Source: a virus. Taken from it: DNA of 32,663 nucleotides. Numbering within the stretch: position 1 is the stretch's first letter; the number at the start of each line of letters is the position of its first letter. Shown in pieces: positions 6,527 to 14,888 of the stretch. The stretch lies in IMG/VR virus record IMGVR_UViG_3300009512_000039, positions 1 to 32,663 of that record; one strand, written 5' to 3'. The notes beneath the pieces are model-generated. The model was given only the letters and a program-made list of their open reading frames with translations, was not told the DNA's origin and searched no databases. The translations under genes were made by a program, and so were the position numbers.

Positions 6527-7966
6527 ATGGCAACTAATGGAAATAATAATCAGGCTAATGAGTTAGGGAATCCCTTTACTGCTGCAGGTATTGGTGGGTC
6601 TGCTTTAAGTGGTGGTTCATTTCCAACTGCTTATGGTTTTGCTAAGAAATTTGTAGATGCTAAAAGTGTTTATGGAAGTGGTAATAATGGAGTTACATCA
6701 ATAGATGATCCTACTTATTTAGGTTTTGAATTAATGTTTGATATATCATCACCATTATTTAATGGTACAAGCTCAGGAGATCCTGGTATAGATGACGGTG
6801 GTAGCAGTAGTGATTACCCATCAACACCTTCAGCTATAGGTTATCTTAATAAGATTGGCCAAGCAAACAGAGTTCAATATTTAAAATCATTCTGCCAAGG
6901 GATGTTAGAAATACAAAGAACAAGACCTTATTATTTTCAAACAATTTCTGGATTAGTAGAAGCATTTCAAAAATCTACTGATTTTGCAATAGACCCTTTT
7001 ACTGGAAGTACCGGAGCAGATGGTATTGCTGTTGGTTGTTTAGAAGCTTTAGATTTAAAGATAACTGCTTTATTTAATATGTATAGAATGGCAGTGTATG
7101 ACATGAGATACAAAAGATTTGTTGTACCTAAGAATTTGTGCAGGTTTGATATTTATATTAATGTACATGAAATAAGAAAATTTAGAGCTACAGTAGCGGC
7201 AAGCGGTGCAGATGCTAAAACTTATGGTAATGTACCAGAGGCAGGTAATACAAATTCTGCCGGAGCCGATACTGCCTCAGTTACTAATGAAAATACTTCT
7301 CAGATTAGATTTAAGTTTACTGAGTGTATGTTTGATGTTGCTGCTAGTGGTAAAGTTTTTGATGGTGTTACAAACAGTGGTGGTGAAATTGCTACTACTG
7401 AATTAAAGTTTGGTTATAGTACATTAGAATTAATATCTCAATATTCTGGATTTGCAAGTGCAATGGAAGAAGATAAACAGCAGACTTCTAGTTCTCCTGG
7501 TATGGATAATAAGCAAAAAAGTTTCCTTAAAAGTAAATTAGATGAAGTTGCAAATAAAGCTGCTGCTGTAGGTGATACTGCATTAGCTAATCTTAAAGCA
7601 GCACCAGGTAGAGTTTTGGATGCAGCACAAGCAAGAATAGGTGGTTTAATTGATAGCGCAGTATTAGGGAATGTTTTTGGTTTGCAAAATCAAATATTAG
7701 GTGCACTAACTAACCCAGGTGTAATTAATGCTGCACTAGGCGCAGCTATACAAGGAGGACTAGGTGGTGCAGGTGGATCTATATCAACTAATTTAGGTGA
7801 TGCTGCATTTGACCCAGCAGTAGCTCCAGGTAATTCATTAACAGGAAATCAACAAGTGTTTGATCCATCGACAAATACACTCGGTGGCTTAGGCGCGTCA
7901 AACGTATTTGGTCCATCAGGGCCTTCAAATAATTCTGCGTTAAATTCTGAAAACATATTTGATTAA
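6527..7966 (+). CDS. Second tube-junction-like baseplate protein with glycine/alanine-rich tail, 479 aa
   Basis: A 479-residue structural protein. Residues about 60-75 (DPTYLGFELMFDISSPLFN) and 127-235 (RPYYFQTISGL, FNMYRMAVYDMRYKRFVVP, FDIYINVHEIRKF) followed by RFKFTECMFDVAAS (about 261-275) read like the tube-like fold of tail-tube initiators. It may pair with the 599-aa protein in a gp48/gp54-like role. From about 320 to the end it is Ala/Gly-rich with amphipathic helices and little charge. Its stop and the spike start share one base (TAATG), so the two are coupled. The family assignment is by pattern and position; a different central baseplate role cannot be excluded. Confidence 0.55.
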   Translation: MATNGNNNQANELGNPFTAAGIGGSALSGGSFPTAYGFAKKFVDAKSVYGSGNNGVTSIDDPTYLGFELMFDISSPLFNGTSSGDPGIDDGGSSSDYPSTPSAIGYLNKIGQANRVQYLKSFCQGMLEIQRTRPYYFQTISGLVEAFQKSTDFAIDPFTGSTGADGIAVGCLEALDLKITALFNMYRMAVYDMRYKRFVVPKNLCRFDIYINVHEIRKFRATVAASGADAKTYGNVPEAGNTNSAGADTASVTNENTSQIRFKFTECMFDVAASGKVFDGVTNSGGEIATTELKFGYSTLELISQYSGFASAMEEDKQQTSSSPGMDNKQKSFLKSKLDEVANKAAAVGDTALANLKAAPGRVLDAAQARIGGLIDSAVLGNVFGLQNQILGALTNPGVINAALGAAIQGGLGGAGGSISTNLGDAAFDPAVAPGNSLTGNQQVFDPSTNTLGGLGASNVFGPSGPSNNSALNSENIFD

Positions 7967-8832
7967 TGGCAAAGGTAGATCCAACAAATTTTAATGCAGA
8001 TGATTTAAGAACTACTCAGTGGGTAGGTATTGTCGAAGATACTGTAGATGATATCTTTGAAGGGAGATGTAAGATTAGAGTATATGGAAAAATGAATGAT
8101 CGTGTAGATCCTGAAGATCCTGAAAGTGCGTATGTAATTCCTACACTTTCATTGCCATGGGCTAGGCCTCATCAATTAATGTATGGTGGTAGTGCAACAG
8201 GTAGTGGCAAATTTGAAATCCCTAAACTAGGATCTATTGTTAGGGTTACATTTGATAATGGAAATCAATACCAACCAGTTTATCATGAAAACATTTATCC
8301 TTCAGATGAAACAAAAGGAGAGATAGAAGCATCATACCAAAATTCACATGTATTAATATATGATACTGCATTCGGTTTAACTGGTGAGTTACAGGATGGC
8401 GTTTCTGAGGTAACAAATGAAAGAGAAGGTGAACATGTTAAAGTTTTCTTTACTGAGGAAAAAGGTTTAATGATGGATTATACAACAACAGAAGGTCCAA
8501 CTACAGTTAATATAAAACCAGATAATTCAGTTGAAATAATAAATGCAAACGGGGATACTGTTGTAATGCTTAACGATGGAAATATAACATTTACTCATTC
8601 TGCAGATGTTAACATAAATTGTGTTAATGCAACGATTACAGCTAGTGGTGAAACTCATATAAATTCGCCAAGAATCAAATTAGGAGAAGCTGCTGCTGAG
8701 GCTGTTATTAAAGGAGATACTTTTGCAGGAATATTTGATGCACATACTCATGTTGGTAATTTAGGTGCTCCCACTAGTCCACCTATGTCTGTTACTGCAC
8801 CTTCACTAAGTGCAAAGAATACAACTGACTAA
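7966..8832 (+). CDS. Central baseplate spike, gp5-type OB-fold plus beta-helix, no lysozyme, 288 aa
   Basis: Residues about 17-110 form an OB-fold as in T4 gp5 and P2 gpV (WVGIVEDTVDD, RCKIRVYGKM, PKLGSIVRVTFDNGNQYQPVY). Residues about 155-245 are short alternating strands typical of the trimeric beta-helix needle. The end has DAHTHVGNLGAPTSPP (258-273), with the HxH pair (H260, H262) that in P2 gpV-type spikes binds a metal ion at the needle tip. The lysozyme domain of T4 gp5 is absent: OB-fold leads directly to needle. It sits on the gp27-like hub encoded two genes upstream and would pierce the outer membrane. Confidence 0.85.
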   Translation: MAKVDPTNFNADDLRTTQWVGIVEDTVDDIFEGRCKIRVYGKMNDRVDPEDPESAYVIPTLSLPWARPHQLMYGGSATGSGKFEIPKLGSIVRVTFDNGNQYQPVYHENIYPSDETKGEIEASYQNSHVLIYDTAFGLTGELQDGVSEVTNEREGEHVKVFFTEEKGLMMDYTTTEGPTTVNIKPDNSVEIINANGDTVVMLNDGNITFTHSADVNINCVNATITASGETHINSPRIKLGEAAAEAVIKGDTFAGIFDAHTHVGNLGAPTSPPMSVTAPSLSAKNTTD

Positions 8833-9249: not shown

Positions 9250-10392
9250 ATGACCGAACAAGAAATCACCATTCAATTAAGTGATGATCCATTTGATACA
9301 AAGAAAGTAAAAGTCCAAGTACCAGAAGGTACAAAGTTAATGTGTAATGAAGCATATGCTGCTGATGCATTATCATTATATGGAATTACAGATTCACAAG
9401 CTGCAAAAACTCAACTAATAGAAGATAATATTGGTTATATAACTAGAGGTTATATTTCTTTTATATCTAAGGATGGCGAAAGGGCTCTTGTTGATATTGA
9501 ATCCAAATACACTGCTTACTGTAGTCTTACTAAAGAACCTGATTATATTGTAGAACAATTAGAGGTTGGTATGGAAATTGATGTTAAGATTAAAACTAAC
9601 AAAAAAACTGGTGATGTTATTGCTTCTATATCAGATGCAATAAGAGAAGTTAAATTAAAAGAAATTAAAGAAGCTATAGGAAATTCTTCAGTTGGATTTA
9701 CTGCTAAGGTTAAAGAATTAATACACGGTGGATACTGGGTAGACGTTGCAGGTATTAAATGCTTTATGCCAGGTTCTTTAGCAGGATTAAATAAGCTTCA
9801 TAATTTTGAGGCTATCGTTGGTAAAGATATTGTGGTTATGCCAATTACATTCTCTAGAGAAAAAGATACAATTGTAGTATCTCATAGAGAATATTTAAGA
9901 ACAATGATTCCAATTACTATTGATAAATTAAATGAAACTATTAAAGAACCTAGAATTGGTTTTGTAACAGGTACTACTAAATTTGGCGTGTTTGCTGAGT
10001 TTGACGAATGTTTAACTGGACTAATTCCTAGAGCTGAATTAAGCGAAGATTTCCAAAAGAAATTAGATGATAGAGATATCAAACCTGGTGATGAAATTGA
10101 ATTCTGGGCTAAGGAAGTTATATCTGATAGAAAAATTATATTAAGCCAACTAGGTCCTAAAATTGATTTATGGGATGGCGTAGATGAAAAATATAAACCT
10201 ATGATGATCACTGAAGGTAAGGTTACAAAAATAACTTCATACGGTGCATTTGTTGAATTAGAAAAAGGTATTAGTGGGTTAATACATAAATCTAAATTAA
10301 AAGGTGCAGATCTAACTAAAGGAGATACTATAAATATAAAAATCGGTAGTGTAAATGTTAGTGATCGTAAGATTACAATGAACATAGCATAA
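9250..10392 (+). CDS. Ribosomal protein S1-like protein with four S1 domains, 380 aa
   Basis: Four OB-type S1 repeats can be read: about 62-128 (GYITRGYISFISKDGERALV), 147-213 (VGFTAKVKELIHGGYWVDVA, then MPGSLAG and VVSHREY), 234-300 (GFVTGTTKFGVFAEFDECLT, then GLIPRAEL and IILSQ) and 320-379 (EGKVTKITSYGAFVELEKGI, then SGLIHKSKL and ITMNIA). The last two have the classic 'G.V....fGaFve...gl.Gl.h.s.l' form. Bacterial bS1 usually has six repeats and about 550-600 residues and helps mRNA load on the 30S subunit. This shorter version could bind phage mRNA or the host ribosome. It lies in a structural operon with its own promoter-like leader. A general RNA-binding role is the alternative. Confidence 0.88.
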   Translation: MTEQEITIQLSDDPFDTKKVKVQVPEGTKLMCNEAYAADALSLYGITDSQAAKTQLIEDNIGYITRGYISFISKDGERALVDIESKYTAYCSLTKEPDYIVEQLEVGMEIDVKIKTNKKTGDVIASISDAIREVKLKEIKEAIGNSSVGFTAKVKELIHGGYWVDVAGIKCFMPGSLAGLNKLHNFEAIVGKDIVVMPITFSREKDTIVVSHREYLRTMIPITIDKLNETIKEPRIGFVTGTTKFGVFAEFDECLTGLIPRAELSEDFQKKLDDRDIKPGDEIEFWAKEVISDRKIILSQLGPKIDLWDGVDEKYKPMMITEGKVTKITSYGAFVELEKGISGLIHKSKLKGADLTKGDTINIKIGSVNVSDRKITMNIA

Positions 10393-10397
10393 CATAT

Positions 10398-10427
10398 TCC
10401 TGGTTTGAATATATAAACAAATCAGGA
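10398..10427 (+). promoter_or_regulatory. Inverted repeat with promoter-like loop; right arm contains a Shine-Dalgarno-like AGGA
   Basis: TCCTGGTTTG (10398-10407) and CAAATCAGGA (10418-10427) pair over 10 bp with one G-U. The loop is exactly AATATATAAA, the recurrent motif. The right arm ends in AGGA, 5 nt before the ATG at 10433 and one of the few Shine-Dalgarno-like sequences in the window. Read-through mRNA from the S1-like gene would hide AGGA in the stem, whereas mRNA started from the loop promoter would leave it free. A terminator or operator is an alternative. Confidence 0.6.
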
Positions 10428-10432
10428 ACTAC

Positions 10433-11725
10433 ATGTATACTAACGAACAGCTAAATGCCATATACTCATCCAAGATTGGATTAGAATTTGAATTCTTTGC
10501 AAATGAAGCATTAGACGAAGTAAAATATAACTTATCTAATGCATTAAATAAGCAAATTAAAATTGAAGAAAAGGCTCATAGTGAATTTACACCTACAGAT
10601 GAAATATTTAAATTAGAGCCTGACAACTCTGGTGGAACTGGGATGATTGAATTAGTTACAGGACCAATGCCATTTGTTGAATCAAAACTTATCATAGCTA
10701 AAACTTTAAAATGGATTCGTGAAAATGGATCTACTAATGAGAGATGCAGTATTCATATTAATGTTGCATTTGATGGAAAGAAACTTGGTACACCTACAAA
10801 TGTGTCTTCTTTAGATATTGGTAAATTTGTACTTAACTTTAATGAAGATGCTGTATATGAAGCATTTCCAAATAGAAAAGATTCTGTTTACGCTAAATCT
10901 ATTAAATTTATTGTACCATTGAGTGATATGACTCAACCTTCCCCAGCAACTATTTCATGGAGAAATTATATGTTTGTTTCTGAAAAATATTATGGTGTAA
11001 ACTTTTCTAAGATACCTAAAAATTATATAGAATTTAGATATTTAGGTGGAAAGGATTATGAAAAGAAGTATAACACAATTATGAATATGACAGAACATTT
11101 TGTATTGTCATTATATGATTCTTTAGTAAATCCAAAATATAACCAAAAAGATCTTAAAGTATTAGAAACTATTTTAGAAAAACATAGTGGTGTAGTAGAC
11201 TCATATAAAGACTATCAAACATTTAAAAAGAAATTTCCTAAAATACATTTAATGGTAGATCTAAAAACAGCCGATCAAATAGTAGAAACATTTTATCCTA
11301 AAATGAGAGAAAAGATATTTGAACTTTTAACTAAAGCTGGATTAAAAGAAGGTTTAATTAATTATGATGCTGATAGTGGCAGGATGCAACTTAAGAATGC
11401 CGAGTTAATGAAATGTTTTGAAATAAAAGGTATAGATATTGTTGATAGTAAAGTACAAGGTAACATTTTAAACTGTGATATATTTAGTTCTGAATTAATT
11501 AACTCTTCATTATTTGAAAGTAATATTTTTGGTGCAACTGATGTTAGTGATTCTAAAATAGAGGATTCTTATGTAAGTAAAAATGTAATGTGTAAAGATT
11601 CATATGTATTTGGCGTAAGAGGAATATTCAGTGGTGAAATGGAAGGTGGCATTTTTAGAAAAGGTAGAGCTACAGAAATGGCGAGATTTGAAAATACCGA
11701 AATAATTGAAATAGAAAAAATATAA
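10433..11725 (+). CDS. Putative amidoligase (COOH-NH2 ligase family) with beta-helix-like C-terminus, 430 aa
   Basis: The motifs of the glutamine-synthetase-fold amidoligase family are in order: GLEFEFF (16-22, metal/ATP-site acidic residues), GGTGMIELVTGPMP (67-80, with E73), CSIHINVAF (105-113, with H108 and N110) and NYIEFRYLGG (197-206, with E200 and R202). Members join carboxyl and amino groups using ATP, often on peptides or cell-wall precursors; the substrate here is unknown. From about 318 to 430 short repeats (DIVDSKVQGNILNCDIFSS, DVSDSKIEDSYVSKN) look like a pentapeptide-type or right-handed beta-helix, which could anchor the enzyme to the virion or recognise a surface. It follows the S1-like gene and has a promoter-in-hairpin leader. 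Confidence 0.78.
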   Translation: MYTNEQLNAIYSSKIGLEFEFFANEALDEVKYNLSNALNKQIKIEEKAHSEFTPTDEIFKLEPDNSGGTGMIELVTGPMPFVESKLIIAKTLKWIRENGSTNERCSIHINVAFDGKKLGTPTNVSSLDIGKFVLNFNEDAVYEAFPNRKDSVYAKSIKFIVPLSDMTQPSPATISWRNYMFVSEKYYGVNFSKIPKNYIEFRYLGGKDYEKKYNTIMNMTEHFVLSLYDSLVNPKYNQKDLKVLETILEKHSGVVDSYKDYQTFKKKFPKIHLMVDLKTADQIVETFYPKMREKIFELLTKAGLKEGLINYDADSGRMQLKNAELMKCFEIKGIDIVDSKVQGNILNCDIFSSELINSSLFESNIFGATDVSDSKIEDSYVSKNVMCKDSYVFGVRGIFSGEMEGGIFRKGRATEMARFENTEIIEIEKI

Positions 11726-11731
11726 AATAAG

Positions 11732-12595
11732 ATGGCTAATAAGAATACTTATTGTAATGATCCTGATGAAGCTGCATGCTTAGATGCATTAATAAAATTA
11801 ATTAATGATGATCTTACTATTGCATGCCAAATACCGTTTACTGTTCCTAAGAAAGAATTAAACAATATTATACAAAGAGCAAAGCAATATTTTTACAAGA
11901 TATACGAAGATAGTGTAGAGCAAATGTATATTGCTTTACCAGCAGGTGCTGTAAATAAAGCTGATTTTAAACAAGGAGTTCCTTATGGTACTGGTGCAGC
12001 TAATGAAACTATAACTAATAAAAAAAATCTTGCTAACCCAAGAGGTATAGTTCAAATGCCTTCCAGAGTTTATTCAGTAAATGATGTATTTGAAATTGGT
12101 GGATTTAGTGGAGAAGATGGTGGTTTTGGTAGTACTAGTTTTAATGCAGGAGATGTAGATTTTTCAATTGATAAATTTATTTATGATGATGTTTATGGTG
12201 CTGGTATTGGGAGTGAAAATTTAATGTATTATGTAGTTAATTCATTATTTATGGATAATGCAAGACAAGTTCTTTTACCACAAATATCATATACTTTTAA
12301 TAGATTAACTAAAAAGTTTAGATTCCAAGGGCAGTTACCAAGAAATGCAGTTATATTTGAAATATTTTCTACTATTCCTGATTGTGCGTTATTTGAAGAT
12401 GAGGCCTTTCAACGATATGTTATGGGAATGGCTAAAATACAATTATCTAGAATATTAGGAACCTTTTCATTCAATCTGCCAGGTAATATTACTATTAACT
12501 ATGATATGATTTCATCTGAAGGTAGAGAAGAAGTAGACAGAGTAGTTGAAGAAATTAAAAACGATGAAGGCGTTGATTACTTTTTCACAGGATAA
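11732..12595 (+). CDS. Probable virion structural protein, 287 aa
   Basis: A 287-residue protein directly after the amidoligase gene (6-nt gap, A-rich leader). The N-terminal 60 residues are helical (PFTVPKKELNNIIQRAKQYF). A Gly/Phe-rich middle (about 120-150) may be a loop, and the C-terminus (about 230-280: YVMGMAKIQLSRILGTFSFN, then LPGNITINYDMISSEGREEV) resembles conserved ends seen in phage neck or baseplate structural proteins. I cannot name the family. Its position directly before gp25 and gp6 suggests a wedge or hub component. Confidence 0.65.
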   Translation: MANKNTYCNDPDEAACLDALIKLINDDLTIACQIPFTVPKKELNNIIQRAKQYFYKIYEDSVEQMYIALPAGAVNKADFKQGVPYGTGAANETITNKKNLANPRGIVQMPSRVYSVNDVFEIGGFSGEDGGFGSTSFNAGDVDFSIDKFIYDDVYGAGIGSENLMYYVVNSLFMDNARQVLLPQISYTFNRLTKKFRFQGQLPRNAVIFEIFSTIPDCALFEDEAFQRYVMGMAKIQLSRILGTFSFNLPGNITINYDMISSEGREEVDRVVEEIKNDEGVDYFFTG

Positions 12596-12655: not shown

Positions 12656-13018
12656 ATGATCAGAGATATTTATAGTAGAGATGCATTAGCACCAAAGTAT
12701 AACGACAATACTTTAGAGGTTAGCGATTCATTATCTCAGTTAATTATTAAGATAGAAAATTGTCTATTTACAACCAAAGGCGATGTTTTAGGAGCACCTG
12801 GTTTAGGTGCTAATTTAGATGAATTAATATTTTCATTAGTCTTAAACGAGAACACTATACAGAATAATATTAATAGTCAAATAACTGCATACTGTTTACC
12901 AAACTTTGCAGGTTTTGATGTAGATACAAAAGTTAGCTTTTTTTCTACAGAAGATCGTGACGGGTGTTTGGTTGATATTTTTGTAAATGAACAAAGAGTC
13001 ATAGGCGCTCTTTTTTAA
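12656..13018 (+). CDS. gp25: Baseplate wedge subunit gp25 (gpW/gp25 family), 120 aa
   Basis: A 120-residue protein, close to the length of T4 gp25. The family motif is visible at 36-60: CLFTTKGDVLGAPGLGANLD followed by ELIF, corresponding to the 'tp.GsrpG.PefG..l..ylF' loop. The gp25 protein forms the inner wedge with gp6 and triggers sheath polymerisation. The next gene is the gp6/BaseplateJ homologue, the usual partner order in contractile systems. Start at ATG 12656 after a leader without Shine-Dalgarno. Confidence 0.88.
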   Translation: MIRDIYSRDALAPKYNDNTLEVSDSLSQLIIKIENCLFTTKGDVLGAPGLGANLDELIFSLVLNENTIQNNINSQITAYCLPNFAGFDVDTKVSFFSTEDRDGCLVDIFVNEQRVIGALF

Positions 13019-13031
13019 AATAATAAAGTAA

Positions 13032-14888
13032 ATGTCATTTTTTAGTAAAACAAGATTAAAAGCTACAGAGTTATTTGAAGATTCATTTCAATATCTCCAG
13101 CGTACTTATGATCAGGCCGTAGAGGTATTTACTCCCGCGTCACCGTTTGGGCAAGTCTTGACTGTAGTTTCTAATTTAGGTGAAATGATTTTCTTTTATA
13201 TAGAGGCAGTAGCTACTGAAATGAATATTTCTCGAGCAAGAAACATTGAGTCTATATATGGACTATCTAGATTAACTGGTCATGACCCTACGCGAGGTAT
13301 ATCTGCAAGAGGTATTATTGGATTACGATTAAACACAAGTGCGTCTAGCCTTCTTAATGGTGATTACGTTCAGATTATGAATGGTGCCAGTTTTGAAGTA
13401 GGACAAAATGGATTAACTTATTACTTAAGATTTAATAGTGATTTTATAAGATTAGATAAAACTAATAAACAATTTGTTAATGTTGAAGTAATACAAGGTG
13501 AAAAGGATGAACAGTCATTTACTGGTTCAGGTAACCCTTTACAAAGCTTTAACTTAAGCACTAAAGAACCTACTGATCAATATTTAGTTGAAGTTTATGT
13601 TGATGGTGAATTATGGAAAATAGAAGATTCATTATATGATATGAATAACGGAGAAAAATCTGTTATGGTAAAAACTAGTGTAAACGGTGGTTTAAGTATA
13701 TTCTTTGGTAATAATCAATTCGGATTACCTCCTGCTTTAGGTTCTCGTATTAGAGTTACTTATGTAAAGACTAGAGGTGTTGCTGGAAATATTGGTGGTA
13801 AGGCATTAGACATAAAATTTTCAACTCCTGGAACTGATTCGTCTGGCGAGGAAGCTGATTTAAATGAAATCTTATCTATAAACATTACTAGAAATCCAAT
13901 GTTTGGTTCTGATTCTGAAGATCCAACATTTACCAGATTAATTGCACCATACCAAAGTAATTCTTTTGTTTTAGCAAATCCTAATAATTATATTTACTAT
14001 TTAAGTAAGTATGACTTTTGGTCTTTTATAGATGCTTATAATACAAAGAATGATGAATACTTAGATGATGATAATATTATTTACTTATTCTTAATACCAG
14101 ATGTAAAGAAAAAATTAACCAGTGACTTAGATTATTTTAGTGTACCTGAGGTTGAATTTACAATGACTACACAGGAAAAAGAGATGACCTATGAAATATT
14201 AAACAAAAGCGGAAGACAAGTTGTTACTGCTGAAACTCGAATTGTAGATCCTACTATTAAAAGGTATGCATTAAATGTTGTAATAAGATGGTTTGATAAT
14301 TATGATAAAGATGCTATAAGAATAGAAATAAGAAAAAACTTAGACCAATATTTTTTAAATGTAAATAGAAGAGATAGAATTCCAAGATCAGATATTATTT
14401 CAATAATTGAAAATGTTGACGGCATTGATTCTGTAAATGTATTCTTTATATCAGAAGCAAACGAACAAGCTATTAGAAATGGTTTTTATTTTGTACCTGT
14501 GTACGGTACAGATCCTGTCACAGATCAACGCGTATTAATAGAAAACACCAAAATAGTTTTAAAAGAAGGCGAAGATCCTCAAATAGGTTTGGATAGTTTT
14601 GGAGATGTAATTATTGAAAATAATGATATAGCAATTATTAGAGGTGGATGGAAAGATAGAAATGGAACATACTATGAACCTATACCAGAAGCTAATAAAA
14701 TTGGTTCTCTTAATGTATTCTATAAAGAAGGTATTGCAAATAATCTTTATAATAAAATACAACAAGAAAAATATAATAAAGTTCAAAGAAGCAGAGGTAC
14801 TACAATTGCAACAGGTGCTAATTCAGCTGGATTAAATACCGGTAGATTGCAAAATAGCCCTACACTTAAAGCATTAAAAGGAGAATAA
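13032..14888 (+). CDS. gp6: Baseplate wedge protein gp6 / BaseplateJ family, 618 aa
   Basis: The diagnostic BaseplateJ segment is at 224-254: IFFGNNQFGLPPALGSRIRV followed by TYVKTRGVAGNIG. The C-terminal gp6 portion is at 411-471: RYALNVVIRWF, AIRIEIRKNLDQYF, RDRIPRSDIISIIENVDGID and then SVNVFF. The N-terminus (1-90) is helical. At 618 residues it is similar in size to T4 gp6 (660). Together with gp25 and a gp7-like protein it would form the wedge core and change shape during contraction. About 130 residues beyond the core (490-618) are polar and have no assignment. The gene follows gp25 after 13 nt. Confidence 0.88.
   Translation: MSFFSKTRLKATELFEDSFQYLQRTYDQAVEVFTPASPFGQVLTVVSNLGEMIFFYIEAVATEMNISRARNIESIYGLSRLTGHDPTRGISARGIIGLRLNTSASSLLNGDYVQIMNGASFEVGQNGLTYYLRFNSDFIRLDKTNKQFVNVEVIQGEKDEQSFTGSGNPLQSFNLSTKEPTDQYLVEVYVDGELWKIEDSLYDMNNGEKSVMVKTSVNGGLSIFFGNNQFGLPPALGSRIRVTYVKTRGVAGNIGGKALDIKFSTPGTDSSGEEADLNEILSINITRNPMFGSDSEDPTFTRLIAPYQSNSFVLANPNNYIYYLSKYDFWSFIDAYNTKNDEYLDDDNIIYLFLIPDVKKKLTSDLDYFSVPEVEFTMTTQEKEMTYEILNKSGRQVVTAETRIVDPTIKRYALNVVIRWFDNYDKDAIRIEIRKNLDQYFLNVNRRDRIPRSDIISIIENVDGIDSVNVFFISEANEQAIRNGFYFVPVYGTDPVTDQRVLIENTKIVLKEGEDPQIGLDSFGDVIIENNDIAIIRGGWKDRNGTYYEPIPEANKIGSLNVFYKEGIANNLYNKIQQEKYNKVQRSRGTTIATGANSAGLNTGRLQNSPTLKALKGE
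14878..14883 (+). promoter_or_regulatory. Shine-Dalgarno-like AAGGAG
   Basis: AAGGAG lies 6 nt before the ATG at 14890, inside the last codons of the gp6-like gene. It is the best Shine-Dalgarno match of the window. Most other starts have only A-rich leaders. Confidence 0.5.

Follow-up and report, generated by a model that had tools for sequence, protein, structure and literature searches.

The gene g13 (positions 10433..11725; ATG at 10433 and stop at 11725, both exact) encodes a 430-residue fusion of an amidoligase and a pentapeptide-repeat helix, and lies among the tail genes of the viral window, that is, the whole stretch of 32,663 nucleotides analyzed here. The explanation we favor, with a probability of about 0.55, is that g13, docked by its helix, is a core and probably late protein of the tail module that acts as a ligase in most lineages and has a non-catalytic, probably structural role that is indispensable. 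Phage amidoligases have so far been read as modifiers of the host wall from gene company alone; the g13 family keeps different company: it is fixed in a tail module and fused to a repeat helix. What this analysis adds is a separation of the catalytic and non-catalytic functions through natural pseudoenzymes in a tail operon. These natural losses of the active site make the function testable, since proteins with and without an intact site can be set side by side for incorporation into the particle and for covalent bonds. All window features given below are on the + strand.

Profile comparisons and the predicted structure confirm that residues ~1-300 of g13 form a divergent Amidoligase_2/glutamine-synthetase-fold domain, fused to a short pentapeptide-repeat helix. 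The window protein alone has no PF12224 match in Pfam at E<=0.1 and matches nothing in PHROGs; as no library profile names it, its family identity is drawn from its relatives, a profile-profile alignment and a confident structural model. PF12224 (Amidoligase_2) matches 12 of 32 family members (best E 1.5e-6), and the distant relative gp196 of Agrobacterium phage Atu_ph07 exceeds the curated cut-off of this profile (E 5.2e-7, 30.2 bits) and matches the annotated amidoligases of Porphyromonas phages. When the family is aligned by hhalign to three annotated phage amidoligases (E 2.1e-6, probability 89%), every motif pairs one to one, which bears out the family assignment of the earlier note.

The amidoligase domain (residues 1-303, 10433..11341) features a series of motifs: G16-x-E18-x-E20 (10478..10492), which pairs with the GxExE of canonical amidoligases; D64-x-SGG....E73 (10622..10651); H108-x-N110 (10754..10762), where the canonical form is HxH; R148....Y153-x-K155 (10874..10897), paired with RR..yC; K185-YYG-x-N190 (10985..11002); and E200-F-R202 (11030..11038), the EFR of canonical amidoligases. 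All of these are invariant in 32/32 members save N110, which is kept in 31/32; the residues G16, E18, E20, D64, S66, E73, H108, R148, K155, K185, N190, E200 and R202 are the same across all 32 diverse members of the active set. By analogy with glutamine synthetase, we take E18, E20, D64, E73, H108 and E200 to be the likely metal ligands. An AlphaFold model computed from 27 aligned loci has a pLDDT of 88, and Foldseek searches of the PDB with the whole model, and also with residues 1-303, retrieve glutamine synthetases (8fbp, E ~1e-5, prob 1.00); TM-scores to these solved structures are just 0.3-0.4, with a high rmsd across long alignments. The modelled likeness is one of remote fold, backed by the sequence motifs. 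Against the BFVD, the N-terminal 300 residues match dozens of phage amidoligases. Thus, the claim that the amidoligase motifs are intact holds for the window copy, and the model features a glutamine-synthetase-like fold.

All domains of g13 are under purifying selection, with a median dN/dS of 0.12 in the helix and 0.07 in the ligase, whose active site itself appears strongly conserved in the active lineages. In most lineages the domain would be an ATP-dependent carboxylate-amine ligase, and superfamily chemistry predicts ATP-dependent formation of an acyl-phosphate, followed by an amide bond. Its most likely product is an amide or isopeptide bond, made while the particle is being assembled, on a protein of either the phage or the host. 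The family is large, as one scan of a collection confirmed at least 544 stretches that match it, and its carriers are large, mostly aquatic phages. A tblastn search of annotated phages gave eight records with g13 homologues: six huge metagenomic phages of 462-735 kb, and two records of Atu_ph07. Weak additional matches to the amidoligase profile (E ~1e-5) in LR756501 (W12, 380819-381295) and LR756502 (W13, 208720-208968) are possible paralogues, one of which reads through a stop.

The C-terminal region of g13 (residues 328-394, 11414..11614) has large hydrophobic residues at an exact 5-residue period (p=0.0005 against shuffles, in each of the seven members shown); in the AlphaFold model it has one short strand per five residues, and its matches in the PDB are MfpA and AlbG. 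It is therefore, by sequence and model, a pentapeptide-repeat (quadrilateral) helix and not a generic β-helix, so that the β-helix proposed in the earlier note is upheld in the model and narrowed to a specific type. The helix has ~13 repeats, which are followed by a conserved cap, GxFxGxMxGGxFRxG...(A)...EIIE (11615..11722), with G406, R409 and G411 invariant in 32/32 members. Pentapeptide_4 matches 11/32 members weakly, and the best member shown scores 26.9 bits against a cut-off of 38 for PF13599 and 17.8 against 20.2 for PF00805; because these curated cut-offs are missed, 'pentapeptide-like helix' is the cautious name. Both domains occur in 154 homologues, from loci fetched via g13 itself, and the ligase lacks this tail only in Atu_ph07. 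A candidate tail relative, gp118 of Klebsiella phage N1M2 (E 0.01), turned out to be a DUF285 repeat protein.

The neighborhood of g13 is that of a contractile-tail module, going by profile matches to the baseplate hub/tail lysozyme-like protein g10 (7966..8832; phrog_430, 2.5e-12), the gp25-like baseplate wedge subunit g15 (12656..13018; phrog_43, 0.0038) and the gp6-like wedge subunit g16 (13032..14888; phrog_219, 1.1e-24); the baseplate setting described in the earlier note is thus borne out. Directly flanking g13 are the S1-domain protein g12 upstream (9250..10392; PF00575, 4.4e-22) and the head-tail adaptor-like g14 (11732..12595; phrog_211, 2.7e-12). Wherever the contig extends far enough, the IMG/VR relatives of this lineage all retain the order g12-g13-g14-g15-g16. 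A 462-kb relative does so too, at ~41% identity, but has insertions separating g14 from g15. To avoid selecting on g13, loci were fetched via g16: g13 is present in 58/58, and later 120/120, of those with enough upstream sequence, the 120 including repeats of the same contig and representing 69 distinct upstream sequences. Hence, g13 is a core gene of the tail module of this lineage. It was not found in PAU, PTm1, pT24, MaF61, MA9V-2 and Lak, though these have the same baseplate proteins; the isolated phages with the same gp6 (Tenacibaculum, Flavobacterium, Chryseobacterium and Sphingomonas PAU) are likewise without it, so g13 does not accompany that baseplate in every phage. In phages above 600 kb the g13 homologue is found apart from its usual neighbors, yet near other tail genes in several of them. 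Judging from the tail relatives and from one contig binned to Bacteroidetes, the host may belong to the Bacteroidota.

Several other features of these loci are of note. The fixation of the S1-domain protein g12 in the tail module beside an amidoligase is an odd site for an RNA-binding protein; its homologues occur in huge phages and in Lak phages. Homing-endonuclease-like genes recur as insertions next to the amidoligase or g14 (L076:18047-19249, with DUF7487 repeats; L078:16316-17101; L080:19283-21073; L107:3586-4818; L115:1-1344). One frequent neighbor in distant loci (c16), considered as a partner, proved to be such a mobile gene (DUF7487). Among the largest phages, several have DHH-family proteins flanking the amidoligase (L077:16823-18811; L079:16838-19111; L116:6772-8226); this family (c18) was set aside as a partner, as it flanks the gene only in some of these phages. 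The window has no tRNA by our search. On a 181-kb contig (G001, L167-L175) with the same g13 gene at 100% identity, there is a tmRNA (tag DNAELAMAA) adjoining a tRNA-Ala (L169:3184-3605), together with further tRNAs, and there are sialyltransferase-, cytidylyltransferase- and glycosyltransferase-like genes (L170:168-1691, L170:14001-15800, L171:1235-2512), for which glycan decoration is a possible role.

A promoter-like motif, AATATATAAA (10408..10417), lies 25 nt before the ATG of g13. In the form AATATATAAW it has nine copies in the window, all on the + strand, against 3.1 expected, a number reached in 0 of 100 shuffles. The form AATATATAA (954, 2626, 8831, 9211, 10408, 12627 and 26076) precedes 7 of the 22 window genes, including g13, by 22-39 nt, in each case on the coding strand, and the motif is kept before most g13 homologues. 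On the 181-kb contig it precedes the portal, head-protease and tail-tube genes: it is found at 14/46 genes in the head and tail zones against 6/155 others (Fisher p=2.6e-6, with the zones set after inspection), and occurs rarely in the zone that holds genes for topoisomerase, glycosyltransferase-like proteins and other non-virion products. A sequence resembling an intrinsic terminator directly precedes the motif in some relatives (L239, L101). We consider AATATATAA a candidate late promoter, unlike the TATAAATA of T4, which shows no enrichment in the window (12 copies against 10.6 expected). This motif, common to head and tail genes, is the one pointer to g13 being probably expressed late. Around it lies an inverted repeat, TTCCTGGTTTG-(motif)-CAAATCAGGAA (10397..10428; fold z -4.0), and a similar one is found around the motif at ~2618-2650. 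The repeat is also seen upstream of g13 in L060, L061, L096, L102 and L127; judged by eye and from single folds, its arms vary yet still pair in several relatives, while many others lack it. An Rfam search gave no match.

The g16-fetched set also reveals pseudoenzymes: in 9 of the 69 distinct upstream sequences, g13 has an intact, full-length homologue whose active site, as judged by sequence, is destroyed. The substitutions affect E18, D64, E73, H108, E200 and other positions and differ between members; in L222, the six conserved columns that are lost all belong to the catalytic set (p=0.0004). The L222 match shows what looks like an internal stop, but this most likely falls a little before the ATG, and the 433-residue ORF is open. 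In a tree built with the catalytic columns omitted, the inactive homologues form two strongly supported clades and two changes are required, although the point at which clade B joins is unsettled. By this tree, the active site has been lost twice independently, in at least two lineages. The pattern of constraint is inverted in them: the ligase is more conserved than the helix in 392/406 active pairs, whereas the helix is more conserved in 15/15 inactive pairs and the ligase in none of the 15; the pairs are not independent, while the two inactive clades are. Those contigs with a dead copy that were searched have no second copy of g13. By their substitution patterns the pseudoenzymes stay under purifying selection: when L239 is compared with L240, 3 differences in the dead ligase domain are non-synonymous and 30 are synonymous. 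As two lineages keep a g13 homologue with a dead active site under selection, the protein therefore does something without catalysis. This suggests a second, non-catalytic job, probably structural, in the particle or its assembly. The claim that the protein is probably active thus stands for the window copy, to judge from its intact site, and falls short as an account of the whole function; the caution of the earlier note on function proves justified.

The pentapeptide-repeat helix and the overall fold may dock g13 to the tail or to an assembly partner late in infection, as its genomic context indicates; with catalysis dropped in at least two lineages and the protein kept under selection, the non-catalytic role would be the part that cannot be lost. 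A stronger version, which we hold only tentatively, makes g13 a particle-borne amidoligase: a helix-docked tail subunit whose covalent amide bonds would be made within the tail or, at contact, on the host surface. Purely structural pseudoenzyme subunits would have evolved from it at least twice. Like virion structural proteins, g13 is encoded in a structural operon; its late-type control would be that indicated by the common motif only. One could argue instead that the family is simply an enzyme and that its inactive members are pseudogenes decaying toward loss. The faster evolution of the dead ligase domain in clade A (dN/dS ~0.24 against 0.07) might be so read; however, the inactive ORFs are of full length, their dN/dS is far below 1, clade B is old and diverse, and the gene is missing from none of the 120 g16-fetched loci, making this by far the least probable of the alternatives.

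Two further accounts, both of which we consider unlikely, though far less so than pseudogene decay, place the protein outside the particle. According to one, g13 is a host-envelope enzyme that alters peptidoglycan peptides or a surface receptor and thereby blocks superinfection, its site among tail genes serving late timing only. Such a role has been proposed for the peptidoglycan-modification cassettes known from phiEco32, LUZ24 and RIO-1 (PMC5498523), and most phage amidoligases with a proposed role sit in cassettes of this kind (PMC5498523; PMC11318856); moreover, GGACT genes occur elsewhere in some of the largest phages. However, searches that recover all three partners (GGACT, COOH-NH2 ligase and GATase_6) in the control phage tf find none of them in the 181-kb contig, G003 or the 462-kb relative; in tf the amidoligase sits with these partners in the left transcription unit and not among virion genes. 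The retention of inactive homologues likewise speaks against this account. Because the defining partners are absent while the control has all three, the modification of wall peptides or a receptor, raised in the earlier note, loses its usual genomic support. The other account sees a Pup-ligase-like enzyme that modifies some late protein of the host or phage and is never itself packaged; its helix would dock the substrate, and its inactive forms would be chaperones or decoys for the same partner. This account is compatible with the carboxylate-amine ligase fold and motifs, and with a helix in which nothing points to a named virion part as its anchor; against it stand the operon position and the late-type promoter-like motif that g13 has in common with virion genes. 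A co-loss search of the conserved columns of g8-g20 likewise supports no neighboring residue as a substrate lost together with the active site; a substrate elsewhere would escape it. Of these columns, just two were lost in both inactive clades: K117 of the hub g10, rejected because the L235 phage (L250) retains it, and a g20 residue represented by a single clade-A sequence.

Returning to g13 as a probably docked core protein of the tail module, its parts can be compared with several known systems; our literature search found no paper joining amidoligases to a virion proteome or to pentapeptide repeats. The helix is a 5-residue-repeat quadrilateral helix like those of MfpA (6zt4, 2bm5) and AlbG (2xt4), but has just ~13 repeats and is fused to an enzyme, and nothing indicates that it binds DNA gyrase. 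The phiEco32/LUZ24/RIO-1 cassette contains an amidoligase of the same superfamily, along with GGACT, COOH-NH2 ligase and GATase partners, none of which accompany g13. The nearest named isolate relative, Atu_ph07 gp196 (YP_009611861; 27.6% identity over half the protein), has a different C-terminus without the helix and lies on the strand opposite to its portal-side neighbors, within the CDS 170-215 cluster, in which many virion proteins are encoded (PMC6102473). The BFVD entry A0A6J5PQ40 of an uncultured Caudovirales phage, an 'uncharacterized protein' without annotation, matches g13 structurally over its full length (TM 0.83, 26% identity) and has the same two-domain architecture. The PF12224 proteins DBA55455 (Porphyromonas phage), XTK82388 (Christensenellales phage) and tf gp21 (Pseudomonas phage) have the same fold as g13 and the same motif order: GxExE, D.S...E, HxH/HxN, R...yxK, Y..N and EFR. 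In contrast to these three, g13 has HxN in place of HxH and is the only one with a pentapeptide tail; it is fixed in a tail operon, does without the cassette partners and has inactive relatives.
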